From a virus, in IMG/VR virus record IMGVR_UViG_3300030328_005162, positions 1 through 46,707 of that record: a stretch of DNA of 46,707 nucleotides, one strand, 5' to 3'. Both the position numbers and the translations under genes were made by a program. Each line of letters starts with the position of its first letter. The stretch's first letter is position 1. The notes under the pieces are model-generated. The model saw only the letters and a list, made by a program, of their open reading frames with translations. It was not told the origin of the DNA and did not search any database. Positions 32,654 to 40,225 of this stretch are shown here, piece by piece.

Positions 32654-35600
32654 ATGCCAACTTTTAGACCTAAGAAAATATTTAGTTTGAGCGGTTCCAA
32701 TATGGACTTTGTTCAGAACGTTTTCTTTGGCGACGTCCAAGTGGATACATTTAATTATTTAGATACCACTGGTATTTCAGGCGTTGTTCCCGCAGCTGCT
32801 TATTCAAGTGAAATTTTTGTAGAAACTGATTCATCTACTCTGTCATTAGGCAACGTTAACGTAGTGTTAGATTCGGCTAGCCAAGTATCAGTTGGAGAAT
32901 TGGAAACCTATTCAGCTAAAGCAGGAGACTTAATACAAGTCACAGGGGAAAACTTTTACCAAATAACTGATGTAAGATTTGGTCATGCAGATCATTTGAC
33001 AGGTCAATTCTTTGTAACAAGTCCAAACGAATTAAATGTTATAGTGCCTTCTGGGGCAGAATGGAAAGGGATATCAGTATCTTCTTCCCTGCGTACTGGG
33101 CTAAATGGTAGCACTTCTGAATCAAGTGGAATTTCGCCAAATGAATTTGTAATTATCCCAGAGATAACAGGATTAAGCACAGGCCAACAAACCACAGGGC
33201 AAAATGTTGACGTTTTAGGTAGAAATTTTAACGCAGTAACCGGGGTTAATTTTAATAATGTAACGGGTTCTGTCTCGCTTGTTACCTCTGAGATTGTTAG
33301 GGCGGAAGTCCCGAGCGGAGATGTTTGGGGAGGGGTAAATTTGTTACTGAGGAGTGGTTTGTCTCATAGCGGGGACGCTAATTTGATATTCAAGTCTTTG
33401 GCTAAGATAACTGGTATAGGTCCAAATCCAGCCTCGGGTCCTTGGAGCTCTCAAGCTATTCCCGGAGTCCCAGAGATAACAGGATCGGCAACTGCTTTTG
33501 TTGAAACTGGAGATGTTGCTGCTATTTCAGGTTTTAACTTTATACCTGAGATACTTTATGATGCAAAAAACTTCGATAGGAGCGCTAGTGGTTATCTTGT
33601 CGGTTTCGGTACTGAAGGTTCCACTGGGTTATTTAATATAGTAGGGACTACAAATAGTGCTATGACAGGAAAAATTCCTACGACATGCCCTACCGGAACC
33701 AGCAATGTTTTTCTTTATTCTAATCATTACCCAGAAGCTTTTCCTTCAAATACAGATTTTTTATTAAAATACAGCACTCCTGTTATTACTTCTATAAATC
33801 CATCTTCTGGATTGGCGGGAGACGTTATAACGGTAAAAGGAGATAACTTTTATGACATACTTGGTGCAGATATAACTGGAGGGGCAGTAGGCGCTGGAAC
33901 TGAATATACAAGTGCTTTTATAGTAGAGAACAAACAAGGTGACTCTGTTACTCTTACTGTAGGAAGCGGTATTCAAACTATAACTACTCAACAAGGTTAC
34001 GACGTTGTTATTTCAGGTAGGTACGGAGAGGACACTTCCTATCATACTGATGGTGATGGATTTGTGGGGTTTGGAATGCCTACGGTTACGGCTATAAATC
34101 CCACTACAAATATCTCGCCGAACCAAACAGGAACAATAACAGGGACTAATCTTTACTCAGGAGATTTAAGGCTTTCTTTAGTAAAAGATTCAGTAACTAA
34201 TGTAGTTACTGATCTAGCTATTAGCGGTTTTAAGTCTAACAATACAGAGGTTAGATTTTCTTATCCCAATAGTTTTGAGACGGGGGCTTATAGGTTGAGA
34301 TTGCACAATGTTAGGGGTAGTACTATAAGTAACTTAGGAGGGGTTTTAGATGTTTATGAGTATCCGGTTATTAGCGGCTTCTCTCCAACTACCGGAGTTG
34401 TGGATGAAACTACTATAACTATATCTGGCGCTTTCGAAGCTATTACTGGATTAAAAATAGGAGATACTTTAATAACAGGAAGTGACGTTACGCCTTTTGC
34501 TAATAGTGACTATATAACAGGGATACAATTTACACCTAATGAAAATGTAGCAAGCGCAAGGATAGAGGTTTTAACTAGCGGAGGGAATGAAACTACGCCT
34601 GACCTTTTGAATATAGTTCCGGGTTCACCTTCTATTAGTGGGTTTTGGATAGGGACAAAAGATAATAAGCCGTCTTACGTAAGTGCGACGGGAGATATCA
34701 ACTATGATCAAGTATTTGGGCGAACAAATTCCATAAACATCTCAGGGAAACGATTGAATTTAGTTACAGGAATAGAATTTTCAGGAAGAGTAAATAAGTT
34801 TGTAGAAGATAATTTTTTAAGTAGGGGATATGAAAATATTAGTTTACCAATCCCTCAGAATATAAATAGTAGGAGTGGTTTATTTAACGCCGTTGATTTC
34901 TTAGGAAGAACTGGGGATTTCCCAAGCGGTATAAATATAGTAGATGTTAGTGGCTTTAATAGTTATTTAGTTCCCGGTGAAGAAATGCTTTTAAGTGGAA
35001 AAAATGTTAAAGATTTAGATATTCTTTTCCCTTATGTTACAGGGGGGACGGAGTCGATAAGTTCTATTTATGTCAATACAGTGGATAATGTAGAGGTTAT
35101 TAAGGCTAACGTTCCTACTGGATTGATAGATTCTTTACTTACCCTTTCAGGTAGGGAAAATAGTGGTATTGTAATTGACCAAAGCGGGTTCTGTCCACTA
35201 TCTTGCATAGAAGGAATATCAGGATACAATGGCACTAATATTTCTACGGGAGCGCCTCTGGTAATTACTGGGTCTAATTTCATTTGGAGTTTTCCTGATC
35301 TAGGGGACGGAACAGGGATATCAAATATTTCAGGAGCGTACGCTTTGATAACAGGAACGGGTTACAATTTAAGAAATTTTCCAGATGAGAAGACAGGTGT
35401 TATGAGTATGCCGGTAAATTTAACTGGGTATGATAGTGGGATATACGCAGGGTATAGTTCAGAACTGTTAAGCAGAGGGTATTTTGTAACTCCTCAGGAT
35501 TTTATAGGAACAGGGAATTTGGTTTTATCTACTCCGGTTTTTGGTTCAAATTATGCTCAATATATAAAAGCTTTCTCCATAGTGGATCAACAGCCTTATA

Positions 35601-36229
35601 TACAATCTTACCCCTATTATGCTTCTTCTCTCGTGGATACTATTAACTATGCCCATTCTAAAACTGATTATCCGGGAGACATTGTTATAACCGGGACTTA
35701 CGTTGATGTTACAGGTTTTGGTCCGAGCGGTGGTATAACGGGAACTGAAATATCCTTAAGCGGCCAAGGGTTCAGTAATGTGAGGGACGTGTTTTTTGTC
35801 ACGGAAGGTGACAGGGATTACAATTCAAGGTCTATGCTGCAAAGTACTGGATATACAGAGACCTCTCCAGTAATTTTTTCCGGCAATTATTCCACTCAAA
35901 ATCCCGCTAAAAAAGTCACTTACACTTCTGATACGGTCATGAAGGTCCAAGTGCCCGACATAGCGGTAGATCAAAGAGCGGCGGTGTCTATTCTTTTGAT
36001 AGGGGGTACGGAAGCTTTAGTCAGAGGTTTTGAATTGTTTGTAGACAACCAAGCTTTTGTTGAGAAGGTTATTACAAACGATGAGGCTTCACCTGAAATA
36101 TCATCAGGTCAAGTTGGGGAATATACAGTAGAAGAAACTATACAAGGCGCTGTATGGTACATAACCTATAAGAAATATCCGGACGGTACGAAGTCAATAA
36201 TCAACTCTTTCCCTAAAGCGGGGGCTTAA
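32654..36229 (+). CDS. Multi-domain IPT/TIG (Ig-like) virion protein
   Basis: A 1191-residue protein made of about ten IPT/TIG-like beta-sandwich repeats. Each shows a variant of the start ITxINPSSGxxGDxITVxGxNF followed by a VxF strand and a VPSG-type turn. Clear copies begin near residues 88, 170, 375 (ITSINPSSGLAGDVITVKG), 478, 572, 658, 762, 855 and 1015. TIG domains occur in phage fibres and cell-surface adhesins, so this is probably a rod-like fibre or tail decoration that contacts the host surface. The last ~60 residues (VWYITYKKYPDGTKSII) form a small separate end piece. No signal peptide is present. It follows the preceding gene with no gap and overlaps the convergent gene by 4 bp. 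Confidence 0.85.
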   Translation: MPTFRPKKIFSLSGSNMDFVQNVFFGDVQVDTFNYLDTTGISGVVPAAAYSSEIFVETDSSTLSLGNVNVVLDSASQVSVGELETYSAKAGDLIQVTGENFYQITDVRFGHADHLTGQFFVTSPNELNVIVPSGAEWKGISVSSSLRTGLNGSTSESSGISPNEFVIIPEITGLSTGQQTTGQNVDVLGRNFNAVTGVNFNNVTGSVSLVTSEIVRAEVPSGDVWGGVNLLLRSGLSHSGDANLIFKSLAKITGIGPNPASGPWSSQAIPGVPEITGSATAFVETGDVAAISGFNFIPEILYDAKNFDRSASGYLVGFGTEGSTGLFNIVGTTNSAMTGKIPTTCPTGTSNVFLYSNHYPEAFPSNTDFLLKYSTPVITSINPSSGLAGDVITVKGDNFYDILGADITGGAVGAGTEYTSAFIVENKQGDSVTLTVGSGIQTITTQQGYDVVISGRYGEDTSYHTDGDGFVGFGMPTVTAINPTTNISPNQTGTITGTNLYSGDLRLSLVKDSVTNVVTDLAISGFKSNNTEVRFSYPNSFETGAYRLRLHNVRGSTISNLGGVLDVYEYPVISGFSPTTGVVDETTITISGAFEAITGLKIGDTLITGSDVTPFANSDYITGIQFTPNENVASARIEVLTSGGNETTPDLLNIVPGSPSISGFWIGTKDNKPSYVSATGDINYDQVFGRTNSINISGKRLNLVTGIEFSGRVNKFVEDNFLSRGYENISLPIPQNINSRSGLFNAVDFLGRTGDFPSGINIVDVSGFNSYLVPGEEMLLSGKNVKDLDILFPYVTGGTESISSIYVNTVDNVEVIKANVPTGLIDSLLTLSGRENSGIVIDQSGFCPLSCIEGISGYNGTNISTGAPLVITGSNFIWSFPDLGDGTGISNISGAYALITGTGYNLRNFPDEKTGVMSMPVNLTGYDSGIYAGYSSELLSRGYFVTPQDFIGTGNLVLSTPVFGSNYAQYIKAFSIVDQQPYIQSYPYYASSLVDTINYAHSKTDYPGDIVITGTYVDVTGFGPSGGITGTEISLSGQGFSNVRDVFFVTEGDRDYNSRSMLQSTGYTETSPVIFSGNYSTQNPAKKVTYTSDTVMKVQVPDIAVDQRAAVSILLIGGTEALVRGFELFVDNQAFVEKVITNDEASPEISSGQVGEYTVEETIQGAVWYITYKKYPDGTKSIINSFPKAGA

Positions 36230-36438
36230 AGATCAGCTTCTTCTATTTCGATAAAATAAAGAAGGCGATAAAGTTTTTCTCTTCCTGCATCTTCATTAAC
36301 CAAGTCCATAGGGCTTTGCATATTGAGGTCTGGGTGAGGTTTATTTAGCCATTCAGCGACATAGTTATGATCCATAACGGCACAACACTCATTAACAAAG
36401 TTTACAAACTCTATCAACCCTTCCTTAGGAATGTTCAT
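36226..36438 (-). CDS. Antitoxin-like protein, MbcA/ParS/Xre-C (DUF2384) toxin-binding domain
   Basis: A 70-residue protein. The segment VAEWLNKPHPDLNMQSPMDL followed by an acidic G-x-x-K-L-x-x-L-L-x-x-IE helix matches the C-terminal toxin-binding domain of Xre/MbcA/ParS antitoxins (pattern WLxxPxPxLxGxxPxDL...G...V..LLxxIE). In complete antitoxins this domain neutralises RES-type NAD-degrading toxins. Here the N-terminal DNA-binding helix-turn-helix is absent and no RES toxin gene is adjacent, so it is an orphan. It could neutralise a host toxin during infection. Its ATG overlaps the TGA of the GspC/PilP-like gene (ATGA), so it is co-translated with that operon. Family call from pattern only. 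Confidence 0.6.
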   Translation of the reverse strand: MNIPKEGLIEFVNFVNECCAVMDHNYVAEWLNKPHPDLNMQSPMDLVNEDAGREKLYRLLYFIEIEEADL

Positions 36439-37112
36439 CTATCTCGACGACGTTCATCGTATTGACGACGTCTTTCGTTGGTATCAATTTTTCTATCCAA
36501 GTTATTTTGACCGCTCTGAAGTCCCTCTAGTCTTTTAAGGATGTATTCCCTCTTTTCTTTGTCATCTATCCTATCTATGTACTCTAGCCCTTTCTGAATT
36601 ATCTTTGGGTCTATTTTAGGTCGGCGCGAAGGGACTTTTACGACAGAGGGTTTAGGGGTAGGAGGCGTAATATTTTTATTTTTATCTTTATCGTCTTTAG
36701 AGTTCTTTTTTATCACAGTGGGCTTAGCGTTTAGTTTAGGCAATGTAATTGTAGATGGCAGCTTGTGGGTATCGAATGAAAGAAGTTCTGTCACCCCGTT
36801 GTTATCTACTTCTACTAACCCTCTCTCTACACTCAGCAGCGTTACTCCGCTATCTGTTCTCCTTTTAGAGGACAGAGTCAAGAACCTCTTTGGGACATCT
36901 TTGGAAAACATATAAACATTAGTGACTCCTCTGCTGACTATGATGCCCGTCAGATTAAGTTTGATAGGCGGTTGCTCTAGTAGTTTTGGAAGCTCAACTT
37001 TTGCTGGCGCTTCATTAACTAAAGTAAAAGCGTTTCGCTTAACGATGGTGTCATAGGGATTTTCTTGAGCGGATAGAGAGCTCGCAAAGAGTAGTGGGAG
37101 TAGTTTTTTCAT
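36435..37112 (-). CDS. Secreted GspC/PilP-like periplasmic protein
   Basis: A 225-residue protein starting at 37112 (MKKLLPLLF). This start overlaps the TGA of the pseudopilin gene (ATGA) and yields a clean signal peptide with probable cleavage after SLSA; a start 13 codons upstream would spoil both. The mature N-terminus NPYDTIVKRNAF and the following LNLTGIIVS then VTLLSVERGLVEVDNNG resemble the RNxF plus beta-domain plan of GspC and PilP, the periplasmic connectors of type II secretion and type IV pili. Similar proteins are common in Verrucomicrobiota as I recall. Then comes a Lys/Pro-rich linker (~145-175) and a charged helical tail ending in Arg repeats. Family assignment is tentative; secretion and operon coupling are clear. 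Confidence 0.55.
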   Translation of the reverse strand: MKKLLPLLFASSLSAQENPYDTIVKRNAFTLVNEAPAKVELPKLLEQPPIKLNLTGIIVSRGVTNVYMFSKDVPKRFLTLSSKRRTDSGVTLLSVERGLVEVDNNGVTELLSFDTHKLPSTITLPKLNAKPTVIKKNSKDDKDKNKNITPPTPKPSVVKVPSRRPKIDPKIIQKGLEYIDRIDDKEKREYILKRLEGLQSGQNNLDRKIDTNERRRQYDERRRDR

Positions 37113-37384
37113 TCTGCGTAATAGTAAGGAATTCCAGCTGTTGTGTGGCAATTATAACACTGGTTATAGGTTTCTATCAGAAGCTTAATATCGGAGTCCG
37201 ATATGGTTGGTAAGTCATATTCTGGCATTTCGTGAAAGGTTTCTATTTGTTTCCTATATACTTTACACGCAGCAATTCTAGCTTGGCGCTGTGCATTTGC
37301 ATAAGTTTGCAAGGATAGGGAAATAAGTAGCATAATTACAGTGATGGCTAGTAAAAGCTCCAATACTGTAAACCCTTTTTTCAT
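37109..37384 (-). CDS. Type IV pilin-like pseudopilin with C-terminal CXXCH
   Basis: A 91-residue protein with a textbook prepilin leader: MKKG|FTVLELLLA, with cleavage after G4, F5 as residue +1 and the conserved E9 at +5. A hydrophobic helix to about residue 27 and an amphipathic stretch (ANAQRQARIAACKVY) follow. The host prepilin peptidase could process it and the protein could enter a type IV pilus or type II secretion pseudopilus. The globular part is very short (~45 residues). Near the end is C76-Y-N-C79-H80, the form of a c-type heme site, though it may be a simple disulfide or metal pair. The ATG directly follows the previous stop, and the stop overlaps the GspC/PilP-like gene. Pilins are rare in phage genomes. 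Confidence 0.85.
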   Translation of the reverse strand: MKKGFTVLELLLAITVIMLLISLSLQTYANAQRQARIAACKVYRKQIETFHEMPEYDLPTISDSDIKLLIETYNQCYNCHTTAGIPYYYAE

Positions 37385-38020
37385 TCATAAATGCTTCCAA
37401 AGGCTTAACTTTTCTTCTTTTAATTTTGTTTTTTTAACTACTTGCGGTAAGGTTTTTTGATAAGCCCATTGTGACAATTTAAACAAAAAATTAGAAATTT
37501 TATTGTAAAATCTATATCTTAAAGTTCTCTCAAAGAGTCTTCTTTGAGCTGTAATTTTTTCCCATTTTTTATCTCGCGCCTCTGCTTCTTCAACAGTTTC
37601 CTGTATTTCAAATTTAACTAATTCTTTTTTGTCTATAACTCCATTCGCAAAAACAAATTTAAACTCAGCCCACCAGACATTTTCATCTTCATCATAAAAT
37701 GATGTATAGAAATTTACGCCCCCGTTATGACCTACCTTATTCCAGCGGCCTTTTTCGTAAGGATATTTTTTGGGAGTATCTTCAGTTCTTTGTTCTGTGC
37801 TTGGGGGTTCGCAATTCCATAAAGACTTGTCATTTATAAAAAGGTTCTGTTTATAAACTTTATATTGATCGAGCGCATTTTCCAAACACTTAGTTTGAAA
37901 CTGAATACCCCTGACCGACCCGCCATAGCGGCTAGAGCCCTTCAAGAGTTTCTCTTGGTCTTTTGTGAGTAAGCCTTTTAAATAAGACTTCGGTACAATT
38001 ATATCATCAAACATTCCCAT
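37385..38020 (-). CDS. Hypothetical protein (MGMFDD-type N-terminus)
   Basis: A 211-residue protein of unknown function. The start at 38020 (MGMFDDIIVP) is chosen because MGMFDxxxVP is a recurrent beginning of phage and prophage proteins of unknown role. The start 11 codons upstream would overlap the pyrophosphatase by 47 bp instead of 14 bp. The middle has an aromatic beta-rich part (NGGVNFYTSFYDEDENVWWA) and the C-terminus is Lys-rich and helical (LFKLSQWAYQKTLPQVVKKT). No signal peptide. Its TGA is directly followed by the pseudopilin ATG, so it shares that operon. Confidence 0.6.
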   Translation of the reverse strand: MGMFDDIIVPKSYLKGLLTKDQEKLLKGSSRYGGSVRGIQFQTKCLENALDQYKVYKQNLFINDKSLWNCEPPSTEQRTEDTPKKYPYEKGRWNKVGHNGGVNFYTSFYDEDENVWWAEFKFVFANGVIDKKELVKFEIQETVEEAEARDKKWEKITAQRRLFERTLRYRFYNKISNFLFKLSQWAYQKTLPQVVKKTKLKEEKLSLWKHL

Positions 38021-38552
38021 TTTTTTGTCTTTCTTGCCATCTGTTATGAGCATCTAAAACTACTGTCGTCGCTTTTCTTCCGTTCTTCCATTCACCTACT
38101 TTAACCGTGCTGGCTCTGTCTATTTTGTAAATGCGGAAAAATTGTTTAAATATTTTAAGGTGTTCTGGCTCTATCGAGCTTAATCTCGGGTATCTACTCT
38201 TTGGAGACCAATGAGGCACTGCTATCACTTTATAATCTATCTCATCGTTATCTACAAAATCTAACACTCCTAATACCCTGCACCTTACTAAGCTTCCGCG
38301 GTCAATTGGATCATGATTAAAAATCAAAACATCCAAAGGGTCGTTATCAAGAGCAAAAGTTTGAGTAATAAACCCGTAGTTGATAGGGTATTGTAGAGAC
38401 GAGACCAAGCACCGCTCTAATTCAAAAATATTGTACTCTTCATTGTACTCATATTTAGTGTTTGTCCCTTTCGGAATTTCAACAATACAACTTACGTGCT
38501 CAAACCCGTCTTTTGTAATTGGTATATCGTTTACTAGATTAACTTGACTCAT
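38007..38552 (-). CDS. ppa: Inorganic pyrophosphatase, family I
   Basis: A 181-residue soluble pyrophosphatase that hydrolyses PPi released during DNA and RNA synthesis, pulling replication forward. Hallmarks are IPKGTNTKYEYN (K28, K33, E35), R47, PINYGF (Y59), the signature DNDPLDV (D69, D71, D74), DNDEIDYK (D101, D106, K108) and FRIYK (Y142, K143). All residues expected for four-metal binding and catalysis appear present, so the enzyme should be active. Its length is normal for a bacterial family I enzyme. It heads the operon carrying the pseudopilin and overlaps the next gene by 14 bp. Nucleotide-pool support fits with nrdA, nrdB and dut further along the same strand. Confidence 0.97.
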   Translation of the reverse strand: MSQVNLVNDIPITKDGFEHVSCIVEIPKGTNTKYEYNEEYNIFELERCLVSSLQYPINYGFITQTFALDNDPLDVLIFNHDPIDRGSLVRCRVLGVLDFVDNDEIDYKVIAVPHWSPKSRYPRLSSIEPEHLKIFKQFFRIYKIDRASTVKVGEWKNGRKATTVVLDAHNRWQERQKNGNV

Positions 38553-39134: not shown

Positions 39135-39611
39135 TTAAGTAGGGATAGTTTTTACAATTTTATCGTTTATCCTTGCAAGGCCTTCAGGGGTATCGCCGTT
39201 TTTTATAGTAAGTTTGACCTTTGCTAAAGTATTTTTAGGGTCTTTGCGGCCGATCATCGCTATCATTCGGCGTTTTTTATGGTTATCCTCATTTTCAAAC
39301 TGACCCAAATCTACATCAAACTCCATCTCTAAACTATCTATTTTAAGATGGTTGTGTCCAGCTAGGGTCATTAGAGGTATTTCTACCTCTTGATCGCCTT
39401 CAGTTGTAGGGAGAACAACTTTTTTTGTAATCGGGCGACCATATTCATCAAAATACGTGCCTATAACCCGTTTTAGATGCTCAGTTTCTACGTATCTTTG
39501 AGCATAAACTACAGAGTTATAGAGACACTGGATCAGGTGATCGAACGTTTTTAACGCAGGAGCACCTTTAAATGATCCAGATTTTGAATAAGGTAATTTG
39601 TCGTCAGCCAT
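39135..39611 (-). CDS. DUF2589-like protein 2
   Basis: A 158-residue protein related to the one upstream. Shared points are IPLMTLAGHNHLKIDSLEME, which parallels VPLLSVIQTPNLGVKKATVD, and the ending TPEGLARINDKIV, which parallels APEGLMKVLDILG. Both show the DUF2589 plan: an N-terminal amphipathic helix, a membrane-free beta-sandwich and a closing short helix after a D-x-x-PEGL motif. This copy is shorter and further from the family. Its ATG overlaps the stop of the upstream copy by one base (TAATG), so the two are probably made together and may form a complex. Function is unknown. Confidence 0.6.
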   Translation of the reverse strand: MADDKLPYSKSGSFKGAPALKTFDHLIQCLYNSVVYAQRYVETEHLKRVIGTYFDEYGRPITKKVVLPTTEGDQEVEIPLMTLAGHNHLKIDSLEMEFDVDLGQFENEDNHKKRRMIAMIGRKDPKNTLAKVKLTIKNGDTPEGLARINDKIVKTIPT

Positions 39612-40225
39612 TAATTACTACCACCACCGCCAGATGAAGAGCCTCCTCCACCAGCAGGGACAGGTTGAATAGCCGCTCCGAGAATGTCAAGAACTTTCAT
39701 AAGCCCTTCAGGAGCTCCGTCGTCCCGGGCTTCTACATGAACGGTATATTTTGCAGAATTGTCGGTTTTACGAATATTTTCACTTTTGGTAGATACGGAA
39801 GCTTTTAAATCTACTTTTACTGGAGACCACCAATTGTCGTATTTGACACTAAGATCAGTTTGGGTATTTACAGAGCTAGTGTCTTGAGTGCTGGACTTAA
39901 CCTCCATGTCAAAGTCAACAGTAGCTTTTTTGACTCCTAAATTGGGAGTTTGAATAACTGAGAGAAGGGGAACTCTGAGTTTTCTGTTTTCAATCTTTGT
40001 AGTGAGTGCTCCGTTGGCGTCCTTTGATTCCACGGGAGCATCGTAATCAAACTCTACTGTTCGTGCTTTAAGATTTCCGTTGCCGTCTTTTTCCAGCCCG
40101 ATGTCTTTGATAAACTGCTCAGTTGTGTGAGCTAATTGCCCTTGAGCTTTTGCCGCTCCAAGTAACGGTTCCGCGATGAGTGTCCCAATTGGGAGGCCTT
40201 TGAATTGATCTGCTATACTAGCCAT
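39611..40225 (-). CDS. DUF2589-like protein 1 with Gly/Ser tail
   Basis: A 204-residue protein matching my memory of the DUF2589 family: LPIGTLIAEPLLGAAKAQGQ (N-terminal helix), TTEQFIKDIGL, VPLLSVIQTPNLGV, a Ser/Thr-rich strand region, and YTVHVEARDDGAPEGLMKVL near the end. The family is of unknown function. The last ~14 residues (GGGGSSSGGGGSN) form a natural flexible linker with nothing attached. Its start codon is exactly 14 nt after a GTGTAA motif on the minus strand, with no ribosome binding site. It overlaps its paralogue by one base. Confidence 0.72.
   Translation of the reverse strand: MASIADQFKGLPIGTLIAEPLLGAAKAQGQLAHTTEQFIKDIGLEKDGNGNLKARTVEFDYDAPVESKDANGALTTKIENRKLRVPLLSVIQTPNLGVKKATVDFDMEVKSSTQDTSSVNTQTDLSVKYDNWWSPVKVDLKASVSTKSENIRKTDNSAKYTVHVEARDDGAPEGLMKVLDILGAAIQPVPAGGGGSSSGGGGSN

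Follow-up and report, generated by a model that had tools for sequence, protein, structure and literature searches.

Small prepilin-like gene and its neighbours

The window, which denotes the whole stretch of DNA analysed here, is a 46.7-kb virus record that carries a large tape-measure-like ORF (2259 aa) and encodes a J-like tail protein, a ribonucleotide reductase, an inorganic pyrophosphatase and DUF2589 proteins. It and the phage records compared with it are all fragments from uncultivated marine phages. The ORF at 37109..37384 on the minus strand starts with ATG and encodes a small prepilin-like protein of 91 aa with a CxxCH motif (MKKGFTVLELLLAITVIMLLISLSLQTYANAQRQARIAACKVYRKQIETFHEMPEYDLPTISDSDIKLLIETYNQCYNCHTTAGIPYYYAE), as recognized from the ORF itself, profile matches, alignment and selection. 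Its N-terminus carries the prepilin signal MKKGFTVLE (37358..37384, minus strand), with predicted cleavage after G4 and Glu at position +5 (E9). In an alignment of 24 family members (see below) E9 is invariant, T6 is nearly so, and Phe or Tyr follows the cleavage site. The earlier note had described the motif (G4/F5, E9 at +5) and the hydrophobic helix as intact, and this was confirmed by the sequence and by an AlphaFold2 model with a helix at residues 7-52. Neither the invariant C40/CxxCH pattern nor the HR-like partner gene, both described below, figured in that note.

The window protein on its own stayed below the cut-offs of prepilin profiles: the match to N_methyl (PF07963) in Pfam reached E 0.0014 and 18.6 bits (cut-off 21.2), and the matches to ComGE (5e-5), GspH (1.2e-4) and GspG (4e-4) in NCBIfam were all far under their cut-offs. 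Its relatives scored well above, two of them exceeding the N_methyl cut-off with 27.6 and 34.5 bits, and a profile of the small-pilin family matched solved pilins, including geopilin (2.5e-7) and a PilA (5e-7). At the level of sequence, we regard the assignment of the N-terminus to the prepilin/pseudopilin family as settled. The proposal in the earlier note of a phage-encoded prepilin-type protein is borne out by these profiles and by the phage gene context in relatives.

Pseudopilins and a phage 'pilin' family in PHROGs are already known. Like the minor pseudopilins of type II secretion systems (T2SS) and type IV pili (GspH, ComGE, PulG-like), the small pilin has a peptidase signal, a hydrophobic N-terminal helix and Glu at +5; unlike them, it is only 91 aa long, has one predicted CxxCH helix as its tail instead of a beta-roll, and is encoded in a phage outside any pilus operon. 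A single long helix makes up most of geopilin (PilA-N of Geobacter) and of other short pilins, and geopilin was the best PDB sequence match, limited to the helix of the small pilin (residues 2-55) with the CxxCH tail unaligned. PHROG 3433, a phage-encoded prepilin-like 'pilin' of the moron/AMG class, gave a weak match to residues 2-41 (E 0.014), with no shared tail or context shown.

Directly upstream, in the same gene run, lies an ORF whose position is kept in relatives (37385..38053, minus strand); it gave a Pfam match at chance level only and no PHROG match. PHROGs searches of the small pilin's neighbours returned nothing useful for most of them. Downstream, the start of a 225-aa partner gene (36435..37112, minus strand) overlaps the small-pilin stop by ATGA, and its own stop is overlapped by the start of a 70-aa ORF (36226..36438, minus strand). 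The product of this last ORF resembles the toxin-binding domain of Xre/MbcA/ParS antitoxins (PF09722, E 3.9e-5, slightly under the Pfam cut-off; NCBIfam 1.3e-5); it is a stand-alone protein with no HTH. Its position shortly after the partner gene is kept in nearly all relatives. Cargo varies on both sides of the partner gene in five contigs (L003, L006, L007, L012, L015) and includes DegT-like aminotransferase, glycine hydroxymethyltransferase-like, ThyX-like and 2OG-oxygenase-like genes, all named by eye. Further away, a tandem pair of DUF2589 proteins (39135-40225, minus strand) shows 90-100% identity across the window's phage group, and DUF2589 proteins are also present in a 200-kb contractile-tailed record (G412). 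A repeat-rich 1191-aa protein adjoining the tail genes (32654-36229, plus strand) shows 33-36% identity, diverging much faster than its neighbours, and is possibly a host-contact protein.

Distribution, selection and predicted fold of the small pilin

A scan of IMG/VR yielded 14 close relatives of the small pilin (68-92% identity) on contigs of up to 170 kb, with nearly always the same gene order. Divergent members were gathered outward via the neighbouring gene and then via a 326-aa pilin, bringing the small CxxCH pilin to 29 distinct contigs besides the window (31 labels, two of which are repeats). Pseudopilins had been called rare in phages, which is wrong for uncultivated phages given these 29 other contigs and the prepilin-like genes of another type, described at the end, that unrelated viral contigs carry. 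Among isolated phages, the small pilin gave no convincing match (best E about 3), and neither the partner protein nor the full-length pilin matched.

The alignment of 24 sequences revealed eight invariant residues, E9, L11, L25, C40, Q46, C76, C79 and H80, which are kept even where identity to the window pilin drops to about 26-27%. C40 (37265..37267, minus strand) lies in the long helix and the CxxCH motif (C76-Y-N-C79-H80; 37145..37159, minus strand) near the C-terminus, and the loop from C40 to C76 varies in length. Most of the divergent members were collected without the CxxCH motif, although one later scan did use it; as these members were found via neighbouring genes or the 326-aa pilin, the invariance of CxxCH is not only an effect of the search. 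In a codon comparison of 44 pairs, the median dN/dS of the small pilin was 0.12 (range 0.02-0.22); the gene is under strong purifying selection. Conservation and this ratio exclude a chance ORF.

In the AlphaFold2 model of the small pilin (pLDDT 78, pTM 0.48), the helix at 7-52, with pLDDT up to 96, is followed by a turn and a helix at 63-83 that carries CxxCH. No strands of the pilin alpha/beta-roll appeared in this model, only the short second helix in their place. The earlier note's figure of about 45 residues for a remaining globular domain was therefore about right in length, but what they form is predicted to be a second helix and not a pilin beta-roll. Foldseek and VIA searches with the model returned generic helical hairpins only. 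An antiparallel hairpin would place residue 40 near residues 75-76, an estimate from the helix limits and not a measured distance, which is compatible with a disulfide from C40 to either C76 or C79, or with a joint C40/C76/C79/H80 site. Most simply, the C40/CxxCH group would fix the short tail to the helix by a disulfide; alternatively, it could form a metal or heme site.

C40 and CxxCH differ in their occurrence in bacteria. Of 37 host pilin-like ORFs examined (for the host, see below), every one had a Cys at the C40 position and none had CxxCH. In the genome scan, no occurrence of the small pilin in bacteria could be confirmed. Searching 388 genomes from the phylum and 293 from the order with a profile of the tail alone gave no match, while this profile retrieved the expected phage copies as a positive control, including that of L120 (E 8e-26), which had not been used in building the profile. 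As far as these collections reach, the C40/CxxCH tail is found only in phages. Because the tail-only profile matches phage copies and no bacterial genome searched, the window gene is not a mis-assembled host fragment; host origin or misassembly is likewise ruled out by the phage genes that surround the pilin in relatives. The earlier note had named occurrence in bacterial contigs alone as one finding that would count against it, and the gene was instead found among phage genes, with no copy of its tail in the bacterial genomes searched.

HR-like partner, related phages and probable host

The partner protein begins with a stretch resembling a signal peptide and contains a conserved YxxIxxRNAF motif; its beta-domain is six-stranded, and its helical tail is charged. 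The ORF, a structural model and fold matches suggest that the beta-domain resembles the HR domain of GspC and PilP. This domain comprises residues 49-114 (36771..36968, minus strand), with strands predicted at 53-111 at pLDDT of about 80-91; the pTM of the model was 0.36. Foldseek against the PDB ranked the GspC HR domain (3oss) first (probability 0.99) and the PulC HR domain (6hcg) second (0.95), both with weak E-values near 0.07. In VIA-align, GspC, PulC, PilP, LspC and GspB filled most of the first eleven rows, and the best match, again GspC (3oss), had Z 6.4 over 62 residues; since Z under 8 can by itself be common, this evidence is moderate. The enrichment of one functional class among the matches thus gives moderate support to an HR-like domain. 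The T2SSC profile left the window partner unmatched and gave E 0.035, under the cut-off, for a relative (L121), and a PDB sequence profile search with the partner produced nothing convincing.

In common with GspC/PulC/LspC and PilP, the partner has the six-stranded beta-domain and predicted export; it differs from them in the added charged helical tail, and no transmembrane anchor, lipobox Cys, PDZ domain or second hydrophobic helix was seen in it. Its median dN/dS was 0.13, and the partner gene is under purifying selection as is the small pilin. HR domains of T2SS and type IV pili bind the N0 domain of secretins, and 3oss is a GspC-GspD complex. With a GspC/PilP-like neighbour gene, action on a host secretin machine becomes more specific and likelier than it would be from the pilin alone.

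Related phages carry larger sets. The 326-aa pseudopilin lies directly upstream in two related contigs (L040, L041), and another (L118) has two pseudopilins of about 325 aa followed by two small CxxCH pilins. Calling the small pilin truncated is hence an incomplete description: it is short, but its family is a separate one, marked by a conserved tail not shared with others, and it stands beside full-length pseudopilins in sister phages. The structural genes of the window recur in a 170-kb record (G002), which has a single prepilin-like gene. The 200-kb record G412, in which a contractile tail sheath was read by eye, has a different gene set with two full-length pseudopilins and an HR-like gene, indicating that at least two phage lineages carry the set. 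Seven contigs (L027, L028, L030, L035, L037, L043, L044) contain the HR-like gene with no small pilin detected, which means that joint action of the two is not a necessity. Within the collections searched and the open-access literature, a phage-restricted family of CxxCH minor pseudopilins paired with an HR-like connector is new; no paper on phage-encoded pseudopilins was found in that literature, subscription papers lying outside the search.

When 84,980 species were scanned with the full-length pilin, 13 loci were returned; 12 of these lay in marine Verrucomicrobiota MAGs (41-45% identity), where two such full-length pilins also occur in tandem. HR-like relatives were present in 10 of 11 of those Verrucomicrobiota genomes (E down to 3e-22), adjoining other genes and with no recognizable T2SS operon. 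Judging from these accessory genes only, the host is probably a member of Verrucomicrobiota. Among bacterial proteins, PulG-like pseudopilins of this phylum (N_methyl, weak DUF1559 similarity) are those most closely related to the full-length phage pilins, and they share with the small pilin the N-terminal ~60 residues, C40 and the following Gln; unlike it, those examined are mostly 240-400 aa long and lack CxxCH. The small-pilin profile had 23-70 matches per Verrucomicrobiota MAG, mostly covering its N-terminal ~60 residues, and 67 PulG-like homologues have been counted in one Verrucomicrobiota isolate genome (PMC13274419). The same study found few genes to be over-expressed on alginate, one of which encodes a pseudopilin (PMC13274419); these counts and the over-expression suggest that the pseudopilin machine of Verrucomicrobiota may matter for polysaccharide use.

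Neither a secretin nor a prepilin peptidase was found in the phage records checked, whereas the candidate-host MAGs had secretins in 11 of 11 and a prepilin peptidase in nine of 11, in agreement with the earlier suggestion of processing by the host peptidase, which the small pilin would need. The cytochrome c assembly protein (PF01578) was likewise present in all 11. In three Verrucomicrobiota MAGs (G016:C16, G017:C15, G010:C63), secretin domains lie within open frames of ~4,100-4,300 codons.

Possible roles in the host pseudopilus or secretin machine

We lean towards a reading in which the small pilin is a host-derived minor pseudopilin adapted by the phage, which together with the soluble HR connector alters the pseudopilus/secretin machine of the host. 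Its gene would derive from the large pseudopilin families of the probable Verrucomicrobiota host. The host prepilin peptidase would cleave the product, and the mature small pilin may be inserted at the tip or at the base of a pseudopilus or a type IV pilus of the host, while the soluble HR-like protein may bind the N0 domain of the host secretin and displace the host connector. The output of the machine during infection could thereby change in its capping subunit, in its secreted or bound cargo, or in whether it works at all.

The same parts could instead act as a dominant-negative jam, a short subunit and a free HR domain poisoning the pseudopilus and secretin, with superinfection exclusion through a blocked receptor pilus or a stop of secretion as the outcome; we think this less likely but plausible, and the strongest of the alternatives. 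Besides jamming and superinfection exclusion, the earlier note had proposed that the subunit could aid the exit of progeny, a role that may also be considered. It is consistent with the near absence of a globular domain in the small pilin and with a partner that has a signal peptide, lacks an anchor or lipobox, and could compete for the secretin. Superinfection-exclusion proteins of phages that block type IV pili are known, among them Gp05 and Aqs1, which act on PilB (PMC11436027). A jam would not obviously need an invariant CxxCH, however, and the one or two full-length pseudopilins of sister phages, sometimes with two small ones, are more than it requires. As sister phages bring full-length pseudopilins, customizing of the machine is favoured over plain jamming.

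A redox role is more doubtful. Here heme c would be bound covalently to CxxCH, making a single-heme pilin with C40 perhaps as the distal ligand. C40, C76, C79 and H80 are among the few invariant residues, and most of the 24 sequences were gathered without the motif; CxxCH, which serves for heme attachment in c-type cytochromes, is present in every sequence, and pilin topology would place it on the exported side. The likely hosts have the assembly protein PF01578 throughout, and in Myxococcus a noncanonical cytochrome c takes part in forming type IVa pili (PMC8833165). On the other hand, the Pfam matches up to E<=1 included no cytochrome c family, a CxxC with His could equally be a disulfide or metal site, and the conservation of C40 in host pilins without CxxCH makes a disulfide role simpler than heme. 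Reading MPEY and the following helix as a permuted cytochrome C-terminus was considered and given up, since divergent members do not keep Met53. Heme c on the small pilin is possible but unproven. The broader version, in which a phage pilin with heme c (or a Cys/His metal site) and its secretin-docking partner would make the Verrucomicrobiota pseudopilus a redox-active or retargeted fibre, seems to us a long shot of the same order. That the gene is a decaying remnant or passenger of a captured host pseudopilin gene is very improbable, for although host genomes hold dozens of paralogues that the family profile's N-terminal ~60 residues match at E about 1e-16, the strong purifying selection, the conserved novel tail and position, and the presence beside full-length pilins all argue against it.

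This small set of pseudopilins and HR connector, kept under selection and common to two phage tail types, points to the host machine as a real target of infection, and its members may serve as compact probes for the pseudopilin machine of Verrucomicrobiota. Phage interference with type IV pili has been reviewed as acting via the motor or expression and not via supplied subunits (PMC11436027). The present set would extend such effects from the blocking of motor proteins to the supply of replacement structural subunits.

Prepilin-like proteins of a different kind, many of them 36-100 aa long, were seen in unrelated viral contigs (L192, L194, L195, L196, L198, L209, L016, and also L199-L201 and L203). 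Their genes follow closely after an SPFH/Band_7 (HflC-like) gene; Band_7 was detected in 12 of the 14 such contigs tested, against none of 19 records of the window's group. In L194, L016 and L209, the Band_7 and prepilin-like genes have terminase or RecA genes nearby. One contig (L200:3712-4297) has a tandem pair of different mini-pilins after the Band_7 gene, and in another (L202:3422-4534) a LemA-like gene precedes a prepilin-like N-terminus that, by eye only, seems fused to a TPM-like domain.
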